A stretch of 39,827 nucleotides of DNA from Oscillospiraceae bacterium (lineage in GTDB: Bacteria; Bacillota; Clostridia; Oscillospirales; Acutalibacteraceae). Made by a program: the position numbers and the translations under genes. The DNA lies in the NCBI GenBank assembly GCA_902762875.1, contig CACWPS010000011.1, positions 1-39,827 of the forward strand. Reading direction: 5' to 3'. Positions 8,841 through 39,673 of the stretch are shown piece after piece. Every line of letters begins with the position of its first letter. The stretch's first letter is position 1. The notes beneath the pieces are model-generated. The model did not search any database, was not told the DNA's origin, and was given only the letters and a program-made list of their open reading frames with translations.

Positions 8841-8848
8841 AGATGTTG

Positions 8849-8902
8849 ACGGGACGATGTGGGCATCGTCCCCTACAAGGGTAAATTGAATATGCGTAGG
8901 GG
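8849..8902. repeat. Palindromic intergenic repeat, GGGACGATGTGGGC family, copy 2
   Basis: The first 28 bases are identical to the left arm of the copy at 1982. A similar AT-rich linker follows (TAAATTGAATATG against TAATTGAGTATGA), and then the start of the right arm, GTAGGGG, after which the match breaks off. This is a 3'-truncated copy lying just after a terminator. Confidence 0.75.
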
Positions 8903-26116: not shown

Positions 26117-26257
26117 GCCTCCCTTGTGTAAAGGGAGGTGGCACGGCGAAGCCGTGACGAAGGGAATATGCGACGGAGCGTTACGATTGATTTTATACAA
26201 ACCAAATTATCCCCCGGTCTCGCTCCGCTCGACAGCCCCCGTGAGGCTTGCGGGGCC
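26117..26257 (+). repeat. Degenerate gene-less copy of the DUF559-associated palindromic unit
   Basis: The head, GCCTCCCTT...AAGGGAGGTGGCACGGC with its GCCGTGACG partner (26117-26166), matches the head of the DUF559 unit at 27776-27726 (minus strand). After about 43 bases the tail follows (CCCCCGGTCTCGC...GACAGCCCCC...GGGGCC, to 26257), a diverged form of the DUF559-unit tail. There is no gene inside. It lies in the 198-bp gap between spoIVA and the convergent recombinase gene and may act as a terminator. Confidence 0.7.
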
Positions 26258-26296
26258 TTAATTATATGCAATTTCACCTTAAACAAAGCCGACAAA

Positions 26297-27280
26297 TCAT
26301 TTTTTATTCTTAACATTTGAAAGCGGGTTGGCGTCTACAGCCCGCTTTATTTGTGCATCCGAAACATGGGTGTAAATCTGGGTTGTGCCAAGGTTTGCGT
26401 GGCCTAAAATATCCTTGAGTACTCTTATGTCCACATCTCCGTGTTGGTACATTAGTGTTGCGGCGGTGTGACGGAGCTTGTGGGTTGAATACCCCATACC
26501 GCCAAGCCCTGCCTTTGCAAGGTAGGTTTTAACTATATACTGTACGGTTTTGGGGCTTATTCTTCTGCGGTTTCGGCTGATAAAAAGGGCGTTTCGGTCG
26601 GTTGCGACAATGCCCTCGTTGGGCCTTACCGCAAGATACGCCTTAACAGCCGCCAGACAGGAATCGTTAAGATAAACCGCCCTTTCCTTGTTGCCCTTAC
26701 CGGTTACGGTCATAATTCCGTCGCTGGAAATATCCGAAAGGTTAAGCCCGCAAAGCTCCGAAAGACGAAGCCCGCAGTTTAAAAAGAGGGTAAGTATGCA
26801 GTAGTCCCGACGTTCGTTCGCCCCGTCCACCGAGTTTAGAAGCTCTAAGGAGTTTTCAAGGGTTAAGTGTTTAGGCAAAGACTGTTTTACCTTTGGGGAT
26901 TCCAACAGTTCCGCAGGGTTGGTGGGTATTTGGTGGGTCTGCACCGACATATATTTAAAGAAAATTCTAAGGGTTGAGGTTTTGCGGGCCCTTGTGGCGG
27001 TGTTGTTGTTTAGCTCGTCCTTACAGTAAACCATAAAGGCGTACAGGTCGGAAATGGTTACCGAGCGGACAAGCTCTATATCTGCGGCGGAAATATCAAT
27101 TTGGTTGAATTCCGTATCTTTAGTCACTTTGCCCCTTACAAGGAGAATATAACGGAAAAATGTGCGCAAATCGATATAGTACCCCTCCACAGAGCGGGAG
27201 GACTTACCCTTAATCGTTTCGTTGTAGGTTAAAAAGTCACGCAAAAATGCGGGACAGCTGTTAAGAATTTCAAGCTTCAT
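26297..27280 (-). CDS. Tyrosine recombinase (XerC/XerD family)
   Basis: The 327-residue protein has the usual two parts: a SAM-like core-binding domain (residues 8-110, FLRDFLTYNETIKGKSSRSV) and the phage-integrase catalytic domain. The catalytic set is complete: Arg in CGLRLSELC, Lys in TGKGNKER, HKLRHTAA, then LGHANLGTTQIYTH with the nucleophile Tyr. The size and lack of an extra N-terminal arm-binding domain resemble XerC/XerD rather than a phage integrase, so chromosome-dimer resolution is possible. Its position next to a mobile-looking DUF559 unit leaves an element-borne role open. The ATG at 27280 is preferred over a GTG three codons earlier. Confidence 0.9.
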   Translation of the reverse strand: MKLEILNSCPAFLRDFLTYNETIKGKSSRSVEGYYIDLRTFFRYILLVRGKVTKDTEFNQIDISAADIELVRSVTISDLYAFMVYCKDELNNNTATRARKTSTLRIFFKYMSVQTHQIPTNPAELLESPKVKQSLPKHLTLENSLELLNSVDGANERRDYCILTLFLNCGLRLSELCGLNLSDISSDGIMTVTGKGNKERAVYLNDSCLAAVKAYLAVRPNEGIVATDRNALFISRNRRRISPKTVQYIVKTYLAKAGLGGMGYSTHKLRHTAATLMYQHGDVDIRVLKDILGHANLGTTQIYTHVSDAQIKRAVDANPLSNVKNKK

Positions 27281-27319
27281 AATTGTCACCGGTTAGTATG
27301 TATTTAATGTAAAGAAAAA

Positions 27320-27721
27320 TTAGTTTTTGGCTCCCTCTGACGAGGGAGCTGTCAGCGCAGCTGACTGAGGGAGAGATTTTTTAACAGCTAAATCTATATA
27401 TTCGCAAACACCCCTGAAATTACGGTCAATATCTAAATTACAAATTCGTAAAACCTTTATGTTCTGCTTTTTAAATGCTTCTGTTCGCATTCTGTCTTTT
27501 TCAATTTGCTCTTCGGTATAATGCCCGCCGCCGTCAAGCTCGATAATAAGTCTTGCTTTTGCACAATAGAAATCAGCAATATAATTATCTATTGCTTTTT
27601 GCCTTTGAAAACGGACAGGATAATCACGCAAGAATTCATACCATAGCTTTCGCTCCCAAGGTGTCATATTTTTACGCAAAGCCTTTGCAAGTGGGATATT
27701 GCTTTTATTATAAGCTTTCAT
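27320..27721 (-). CDS. DUF559 (Vsr-like) nuclease-fold protein
   Basis: The 133-residue protein shows the DUF559 pattern: ALRKNMTPWERKLWYEFLRD, then VRFQRQKAIDNYIADFYC, LIIELDGGGHYTEEQIEKD and FKKQNIKVLRICNLDI. DUF559 belongs to the restriction-endonuclease-like fold related to Vsr; the likely acidic metal ligands are Asp in YIADFY and Glu/Asp in IIELDG. The ribosome site GGAGGGAG is part of the palindromic head upstream, and the last ~18 codons (SLPQSAALTAPSSEGAKN) are encoded by the palindromic tail. Gene and repeats therefore form one unit. A nuclease role is inference from the fold; no partner gene is evident. Confidence 0.88.
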   Translation of the reverse strand: MKAYNKSNIPLAKALRKNMTPWERKLWYEFLRDYPVRFQRQKAIDNYIADFYCAKARLIIELDGGGHYTEEQIEKDRMRTEAFKKQNIKVLRICNLDIDRNFRGVCEYIDLAVKKSLPQSAALTAPSSEGAKN

Positions 27722-27776
27722 TTTTCTCTCCCTCCGTCACGGCAAAGCCGTGCCACCTCCCTCGTCAGAGGGAGGC
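27329..27776 (-). mobile_element. DUF559 gene bounded by palindromic head and tail modules (putative mobile unit)
   Basis: On the minus strand the unit starts with a two-hairpin head (27776-27726): CCTCCCTC...GAGGGAGG, then GGCACGGC-ttt-GCCGTGAC, ending CGGAGGGAGAG. The DUF559 gene follows, and then a tail (27376-27329): CTCTCCCTCAGTCAGC...GCTGAC, then GCTCCCTC...GAGGGAGCC. Head and tail recur in the same order without the gene at 39482-39673 and, diverged, at 26117-26257. This is what an autonomous element with non-autonomous relatives would look like. Target duplications are not obvious, and mobility is inferred. Confidence 0.65.
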
Positions 27777-27777
27777 T

Positions 27778-28149
27778 TTAATGCCGTTGCTTATTTCTTT
27801 CCCATTCGTCTCTTATAATACCGTAGTATGCTATGTCAACAAATTTGCCTGTAGATGTTTTAAGGTATTCGCATTTATCACTAAGGCGGATAACACTTAT
27901 CCCTCCGACGGCCTGTCCGTCATATTCAATCACACAGTTATATGTACGGGGGTCGTCATAGGCGGAAACCCAGCCTTATAACAGTTGTTTTGTAAATTCA
28001 ACCGATTGGTGTGGAGACCAGGTCAAATACTTTGTAACCTTTTCATCGCCTGCCCAATTATTGAACATATCTTCGGCGTCACAAACAGTAAATCTGCGCA
28101 AGGTAAGTCTTTCGGTATGCAGGACCTGAGTTCCTTTATGGGTAAGCAT
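27778..28149 (-). pseudogene. Broken GNAT-family N-acetyltransferase gene
   Basis: From an ATG with GAGGTG upstream, the frame reads MLTHKGTQVLHTERLTLRRF, the usual start of a RimJ/RimL-like GNAT enzyme. After TKQLL at codon 56 a TAA stop interrupts it. The same frame continues GWVSAYDDPRTYNCVIEYDG and AVGGISVIRLSDKCEYL, then joins the usual C-terminal end, FVDIAYYGIIRDEWERNKQRH. The acetyl-CoA-binding middle (about 60 residues in related proteins) is missing. Thus one nonsense change and one internal in-frame deletion are both visible. The stop codon directly abuts the head of the DUF559 unit. The remnant is still led by a good promoter. Confidence 0.8.
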
Positions 28150-28179
28150 AAATAATCACCTCGGTTTATATTTAACTAT

Positions 28180-28266: not shown

Positions 28267-28284
28267 ATGGGTGAGGTGGGAGAG

Positions 28285-35138: not shown

Positions 35139-35154
35139 AGAGTTATTGTATGTT

Positions 35155-35180
35155 TCGGGACGATGCCCACATCGTCCCGA
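35155..35180. repeat. GGGACGAT palindrome, family copy 3
   Basis: TCGGGACGAT and ATCGTCCCGA form perfect 10-bp arms around GCCCAC. It is the inverted form of the core found at 1982-2056 and 8849-8876, and lies just after the large ABC gene. Confidence 0.75.
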
Positions 35181-35211
35181 AAAAGAGCGTTTAAAAGAAT
35201 AATGAATGTAG

Positions 35212-39481: not shown

Positions 39482-39673
39482 GCCTCCCTCTTACGAGGGT
39501 GCGGGTGTCCTGTGGACACCGCTGCGAAGCAGCAGCACCGACCGAAACGGCAGTTGAGAGGTGGCACGGCTTTGCCGTGACGGAGGGAGAGAAGGTGTAA
39601 AGCTACAAGAAAATGCAACTTTTTCTCTCCCTCAGTCTCGCTGCGCTCGCCAGCTCCCTCGTCAGAGGGAGCC
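39482..39673 (+). repeat. Gene-less copy of the DUF559-associated palindromic unit
   Basis: The head starts GCCTCCCTCTTACGAGGG, is split by about 57 bases carrying two small hairpins (GGTGTCC-tgt-GGACACC and GCTGCgaaGCAGC), and resumes at 39558 with 34 bases identical to the head of the DUF559 unit, ending GGAGGGAGAG. A 30-base interior follows in place of the gene. The tail (39624-39673, CTCTCCCTCAGTC...GAGGGAGCC) shares its first 14 and last 23 bases with the DUF559-unit tail. It is therefore a deleted, non-autonomous-looking version of that unit. Confidence 0.78.

Follow-up and report, generated by a model that had tools for sequence, protein, structure and literature searches.

The window, i.e., the whole stretch of 39,827 nucleotides that was analyzed, contains a gene for a predicted DUF559 nuclease that is bounded by two palindromic modules, here called head and tail (Table 1). 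Read on the minus strand, the head begins with an outer core (27757-27774), continues with a second hairpin, GTGGCACGGC-GCCGTGAC, and ends in an inner GGAGGGAG, which forms a Shine-Dalgarno-like site directly 5' of the ATG, i.e., the inner repeat of the head doubles as the ribosome site of the gene. The tail, on the same strand, reads CTCCCTC, hairpin, and core (inner TCTCTCCCTC, hairpin, outer core at 27331-27348); it supplies the final codons of the DUF559 gene, SLPQSAALTAPSSEGA, and the stop codon follows immediately past the core. The proposal of the initial annotation that a two-hairpin head provides the ribosome site and a palindromic tail the last codons was thus confirmed by the sequence. 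Both modules share one plan (outer hairpin CTCCCTC-N4-GAGGGAG, second hairpin, inner GAGGGAGAGA) and are imperfect inverted repeats of each other (pair I25, 24 nt, 92%). Since head and tail are inverted copies, we regard the arrangement as a unit with terminal inverted repeats of ∼50 bases rather than as two unrelated modules. As single-stranded DNA, head and tail folded with z-scores of -5.06 and -5.55, respectively. Allowing up to 2 mismatches, the core CTCCCTC-N4-GAGGGAG was found at four sites of the window (27331, 27757, 39484, and 39654), compared to 0.05 expected from shuffles. Between the unit and a response regulator gene at 28267 lies a broken reading frame (27777-28150), the first part of which matched the Acetyltransf_3 (GNAT) profile with an E value of 2.8e-5, just below the cut-off.

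Table 1. Features of the DUF559 unit, its gene-less relatives, and a neighboring gene in the window
Feature	Position	Strand	Evidence or remarks
DUF559 nuclease gene, 133 aa	27320..27721	-	Pfam PF04480, E 6.2e-26
Head module	27726..27776	-	Sequence, core search, folding
Tail module	27329..27376	-	Sequence, core search, folding
XerC/D-like (Phage_integrase) gene, neighbor outside the unit	26297..27289	-	Orthologue across the genus; comparison of occupied and unoccupied sites
Gene-less unit, same type as the gene unit	39482..39673	+	Extra module nested in head; inside outer inverted arms GGTTCTATTCTAAATGTTGGGG
Gene-less unit, sister type, outer hairpin CTCCCTTGTGTAAAGGGAG, decayed tail	26117..26258	+	Pair I3

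Head and tail had also been reported without the gene at two further places in the window, and both of these gene-less units exist (Table 1). Throughout the window's genome, the core pattern occurred at 39 sites (≤2 mismatches), while the reversed-pattern control gave 0. In stretches around the cores of this genome and of a second one (G007), 26 core pairs with a spacing below 460 bp were counted, of which 25 were arranged head to tail in inverted order and one head to head. Five of these 25 head-tail units carry DUF559 and span 441 to 444 bp, whereas the other 20 measure 120 to 310 bp and have a longest closed frame of 53 residues. DUF559 is the sole gene recognized in the 25 units, the gene-less ones being judged by frame length. 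The spacer of the gene-less units contains a common hairpin of its own and no scar of the gene; these units are not simple deletions of the gene. Folded as single strands, two of them each formed one long DNA hairpin (z-scores of -9.2 and -7.8). A further 20 cores in the same stretches lay outside any counted pair, some with a variant partner such as CTCCCCTGACAAGGGGAG and others solo. One wider pair (L024, 1,118 bp) encloses a host gene, and each of its cores seems, by eye, to have a closer variant partner.

Additional hairpin modules (TGCGGGTGTCC..., AATGCGCCCCTTG...) were seen nested within heads at L030 963-1272 and at 39501-39560 of the window; one nested module sits within another, as if hairpins had repeatedly entered hairpins. 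Rfam gave no match on unit ends or outer flanks of the loci submitted. A match to Gut-1 RNA (RF01706) was present near a DUF559 unit of G007 (L136 2708-2884), and a second one was subthreshold.

In an alignment of 29 DUF559 sequences including that of the window, residues E23, D50, E61, and D63 were invariant. The AF2 model of the window's protein had a pLDDT of 85.6, with the tail-encoded residues 121 to 133 below 50, and the closest solved structures were 3hrl (putative endonuclease-like; E value of 3.5e-5) and the catalytic domain of I-Bth0305I (E value of 7.7e-4). The PF04480 profile, the modeled nuclease fold (PDB 3hrl and 3r3p), and the conserved acidic residues place the predicted nuclease in the DUF559/Vsr-EDxHD superfamily. 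A DUF559-containing gene has been placed in the EDxHD homing endonuclease family (PMC9403480), the Caulobacter protein VsrA has a DUF559 domain (PMC12907096), and a DUF559 gene of Faecalibacterium prausnitzii A2-165 is located immediately upstream of a mam gene (PMC8836110). A scan of IMG/VR with the protein and the exact head pattern yielded no relatives; two unannotated fecal "Bacteriophage sp." records encode DUF559 at ∼47% identity, one with matched ends near the gene (L322) and one with a distant repeat only (L321).

To what extent the ends belong to the gene was assessed across the class. With weak matches included, Pfam searches gave DUF559 hits for 25 of 60 relatives and 64 of 245 class genomes. 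The class sample for the analysis of ends was restricted to strong matches (53 places, E values up to 6e-23) and left out weaker class matches, many of which lay within very long frames, as well as partial matches among the relatives. Of 89 loci put into the end test, 10 were dropped (7 with a short flank, 2 duplicates, and 1 partial) and 79 analyzed. For each, the stretch 5' of the gene was aligned to the reverse complement of the 3' stretch, and 335 controls were taken from the same loci. Matched inverted ends scoring above 99% of the controls were present at 59 of the 79 DUF559 genes, including the window's, and the other 20 had none above this threshold. The initial annotation had considered that DUF559 homologues might occur equally often without head and tail; this was not the case, as genes lacking matched ends were the minority. 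An earlier sample of loci was biased because the peptide patterns used contain tail-encoded residues; among 107 loci taken mostly from it (8 dropped), T1 cores as defined below were found on both sides in 58 cases, on one side in 18, and on neither in 31. The class counts are based on Pfam searches instead.

The outer hairpins, close variants included, fell into three types: T1 (CTCCCTC-N4-GAGGGAG), T2 (CTCCCTT-N5-AAGGGAG), and T3 (CTTCCCCTTGAGGGGAAG). With up to 2 mismatches allowed, head and tail were of the same type in 39 genes and of differing types in 2; only one side was recognized in 20 and none in 18. When the 39 same-type genes were mapped onto the DUF559 protein tree, they formed three groups with only 2 type changes, the minimum, compared to a mean of 17.1 changes for shuffled types (0 of 200 shuffles were as low as 2). 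The tree is built from few columns and leaves 49 of 76 inner branches open; the branches separating the hairpin types had SH-aLRT values of 93, 93, and 99%. Since the window's genus contains all three types, and each of them goes with a separate nuclease group there, host ancestry does not explain this pattern. Median dN/dS values were 0.118 for T1 (38 pairs), 0.157 for T2 (70 pairs), and 0.148 for T3 (3 pairs), and values of ∼0.12 to 0.16 indicated that the protein is under purifying selection.

The palindromes were also concentrated in genomes that encode the nuclease. Counting a genome as DUF559 positive at an E value of ≤1e-12, a cut-off chosen after the matches had been listed, T2/T3 palindromes were present in 33 of 35 positive class genomes versus 20 of 210 without DUF559 (Fisher test, P = 1e-24). 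Part of this co-occurrence arises by construction, because each gene unit contributes two palindromes; after subtraction of two per gene, a surplus was still found in 30 of 35 versus 20 of 210 genomes (Fisher test, P = 3e-20). In the 11 families containing both kinds of genomes, the palindromes occurred in 21 of 22 positive genomes versus 18 of 42 without DUF559 (P = 3e-4), and in 20 of 22 versus 18 of 42 if only surplus copies were considered (P = 1e-3). T3 palindromes were present in each of the 11 genomes with T3-clade genes, as were T2 palindromes in each of the 18 genomes with T2-clade genes (the units' own ends counted in both cases). Incomplete genomes from which genes are missing would weaken such a co-occurrence, not create it. 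For T1, the type of the window's own unit, the link was weaker: among the 60 relatives, T1 palindromes were present in 13 of 25 DUF559-positive genomes and 8 of 35 without DUF559 (P = 0.03), in a comparison that also counts genomes whose DUF559 genes are of other types. Hence, the opposite situation raised in the initial annotation, head-tail pairs abounding in genomes devoid of DUF559, did not apply to T2/T3, as DUF559-less genomes with these palindromes were scarce and retained at most 12 copies; for T1, the answer is less clear. One genome without a DUF559 match, G035, contains 6 exact cores, and G039 has 32 T1-like cores, yet its DUF559 genes have T2 or T3 ends only. Taken together, matched ends and co-occurrence supported the view that gene and ends are one unit with gene-less relatives, and ends and nuclease almost certainly represent a single, co-inherited element.

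This head-gene-tail element is also very likely mobile. Ten T1 gene units (45 pairs) had a median identity of 0.82 inside, but only 0.48 and 0.52 outside the unit; T1 pairs with common flanks A and B, described below, reached up to 0.90 outside. For eight T2 units, the identity was 0.91 within the unit; of the two flanks, the left one reached 0.83 and the right one 0.50. Moreover, in one T2 subclade (L271 and L293), a repeat of ∼800 bp, wider than the distance from head to tail, surrounds the units in several genomes and includes, by eye, a promoter-like stretch upstream of the head. Because of this wider repeat and the similar left flanks, the real ends may lie elsewhere than at head and tail in this subclade.

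Inverted arms resembling IS ends were detected, above the control, around 8 of the 20 gene-less units and around 0 of the 5 gene-bearing ones. Presumably, these are similar to ISL3 or IS1182 ends, and such arms could move gene-less units. One kind of arms in the window's genome encloses T1 units, a decayed solo core (L261), or a T2 unit (L262). Both observations would be in line with DUF559 being a passenger, with the hairpin units as cargo or decoration in MITEs moved by DDE transposases and the gene kept, e.g., for defense or repair. Weak matches of the protein to defense nucleases point in the same direction, and an old capture of a passenger would equally yield the congruence of ends and genes. 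However, none of the gene-bearing units lies in such arms, DUF559 is the sole gene recognized in the examined units and recurs with all three end types, and the palindromes are concentrated in DUF559-positive genomes. We therefore consider it unlikely that the nuclease is a mere passenger.

Within the genus, the content of a slot between the flanks A and B (L202 to L215) varies from copy to copy: some copies have a unit with DUF559, some a gene-less unit or a solo core, and others a different gene. In several genus genomes, flank A is promoter-like with a AACTTGTGGAAATGACTTCCACAAGTT palindrome, and flank B (TTTGTCCCTAATTTGACACAAGCATATAAT) precedes different genes. These alternative states of the slot are consistent with homing, i.e., with DUF559 as a homing-type gene that invaded existing gene-less pairs (vacant alleles) moved by something else. 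The closest characterized fold, that of the EDxHD homing endonuclease I-Bth0305I, and the gene-less units, with their own spacer hairpin instead of a gene scar, would also fit this explanation. In contrast, each of the three end types corresponds to one nuclease clade and the ribosome site of the gene comes from the head, so that gene and ends look as if they were built together; in addition, a search that covered Y1 transposases identified no other mobilizer of the pairs. Invasion by a homing gene is, in our view, quite improbable.

Given the variable arms, slot contents, and repeat widths, units seem to have entered, replaced one another, and collapsed at recurring locations, and where exactly the mobile stretch ends may vary from lineage to lineage. 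Since one genome per species was compared, the differences seen are those between species. At the XerC/D-like gene next to the window's unit, no T1 core was present within 1 kb upstream in any of 29 further orthologues from the genus, for one of which the view was limited to 376 bp; two more strong matches lay outside this set. The broken frame beside the unit in the window's genome means that this locus is not a clean empty site. In general, unoccupied orthologous sites of other species revealed neither a target duplication nor a clean empty site, and there were other changes beside the units. The core itself was considered as a target-site duplication and rejected, because the loop is inverted (TGAC in the head versus GTCA in the tail).

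The reading that we favor, with reasonable though far from complete confidence, is that of a small mobile element in which two-hairpin modules, as terminal inverted repeats, enclose the gene for a DUF559 (Vsr/EDxHD-like) nuclease; that DUF559 moves the element is, on balance, probable as well. DUF559 would recognize and bind hairpins of its own clade's type and cut a target palindrome or a site at a gene end. The unit would then be copied into the break by repair, with other palindromes or gene ends as preferred targets. The 7-base stems could provide the homology by which units are also reduced to solo cores, the latter being putative collapsed remains of units, and gene-less head-tail pairs would represent nonautonomous relatives of the DUF559 element. 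As a whole, the units, found in many gut bacteria, resemble a hitherto undescribed family of very small mobile DNA with a predicted DNA-cutting enzyme at its center.

The nearest system in organization is REPIN/RAYT, of which the DUF559 units are not a member. According to PMC3116915, REPINs likewise consist of inverted hairpin doublets in many copies with solo palindromes besides, can adopt a long-hairpin fold in addition to separate end hairpins, and are associated with an enzyme whose clades match the palindrome types. In REPIN/RAYT systems, however, the enzyme is a Y1 (HUH) transposase (PF01797) instead of a PF04480 Vsr/EDxHD-like nuclease, and the palindromes carry a GTAG or similar tetranucleotide tag, whereas the DUF559 unit ends read GCCTCCC/GGCTCCC and have no tag. 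Moreover, the DUF559 gene lies inside the unit and is multicopy, unlike RAYTs, which are described in PMC3116915 as single copy and apparently not self-mobile. The term "REP/RAYT-like" used in the initial annotation is hence apt as an analogy of organization, but not as a statement of membership. The view that the units are an ordinary REPIN family mobilized by a Y1 (RAYT) transposase encoded in the genome, with DUF559 being incidental, is very hard to uphold: the hairpin doublets resemble REPINs and the window's genome has three Y1-like matches, two of them above the family cut-off, but these three loci adjoin GTAG-tagged inverted pairs and, over the stretch retrieved, are free of the CTCCCTC core, the units lack the GTAG tag, and G039 (98% completeness) has no Y1_Tnp match despite its 32 T1-like cores. 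The Y1-like genes with their own GTAG pairs are an internal control for the REPIN/RAYT comparison. GTAG-tagged REP-like palindromes (GTAGGGGACGATGCCCACATCGTCCCG and variants) also occur in the window, at 1977-2056, 8844-8876, and 35150-35182.

Other known systems resemble the units in part. EDxHD homing endonucleases of the I-Bth0305I type share the fold of the catalytic domain, and they too are small nuclease genes that may spread by their own break; in contrast, the DUF559 units are bounded by palindromic ends with no intron or intein seen, are found at many insertion sites, and have abundant gene-less relatives. With MITEs and their autonomous transposons, the units have in common intergenic insertion, short gene-less relatives, and terminal inverted repeats, which as matched ends around the gene are a feature of classical transposons (found at 59 of 79 genes, as above), but the partner is not a DDE transposase, the ends themselves are hairpins, and no target duplication was seen. 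Vsr/VsrA-type repair nucleases belong to the same domain family, whereas here DUF559 is associated with hairpin ends; a literature search, largely of freely accessible papers, found no paper on such an association.

Short palindromic repeats fill the intergenic space in many bacteria, and we know of no mover for many of their families. End-matched DUF559 proteins might be the mobilizers of widespread, undescribed hairpin-ended elements, cut by a Vsr/EDxHD nuclease rather than a transposase, from which many orphan palindromic repeats of Clostridia would derive, an extension that we put forward tentatively. If this is true, the short list of mechanisms known to move bacterial DNA would be extended by a nuclease-based one, and DUF559, a large domain family of unknown function, would gain a role. 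As nuclease clades match palindrome types one to one, the spread of palindromic repeats becomes directly testable.

Alphaproteobacteria and other phyla might likewise owe palindromic repeats to such elements. Outside Clostridia, 11 DUF559 loci from Proteobacteria, Cyanobacteria, and Deinococcus, the better-ranked of 37 plasmid records with a match, were subjected to the end test with 130 controls. Seven of the 11 scored above the 99% level; two of these, from the same species (L328 and L332), have the repeat far from the gene, and the five loci with clearly matched ends are L325, L327, L329, and L330 (Alphaproteobacteria) and L331 (Deinococcus). The same plan of ends was seen in L329 and L330. 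Four loci failed the test, two of them from Synechocystis and one from Sinorhizobium, the fourth being E. coli ycjD (score of 18). In the alphaproteobacterium Sphingomonas YK209, a DUF559 unit lies within the transhydrogenase operon; in the two relatives inspected, both genes are present and the unit is absent. In Sphingobium RAC03, also of the Alphaproteobacteria, a unit between two carboxylase genes is absent from the four relatives opened, but the occupied strain has a local duplication as well. With the S. meliloti locus L327 as query, none of the other plasmid records reached 80% coverage.

The E. coli DUF559 gene ycjD (L334 3007-3728) was matched in 3,365 of 5,426 E. coli genomes; in those listed strains that carry the gene, it is flanked by sapF and fabI. 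It was dropped as an empty-site system: the two ycjD-less strains opened have an efflux operon ahead of fabI, and there is therefore no clean junction. A paper on efflux pumps (PMC12817139) reportedly names ycjD. The stop codon of ycjD lies within a CCCTCTCCC stretch, and a GGGGAGAGGGTTAGGGTGAGGGG sequence follows next, which has matches elsewhere too (row H147); repeats of this type have been called Box C.
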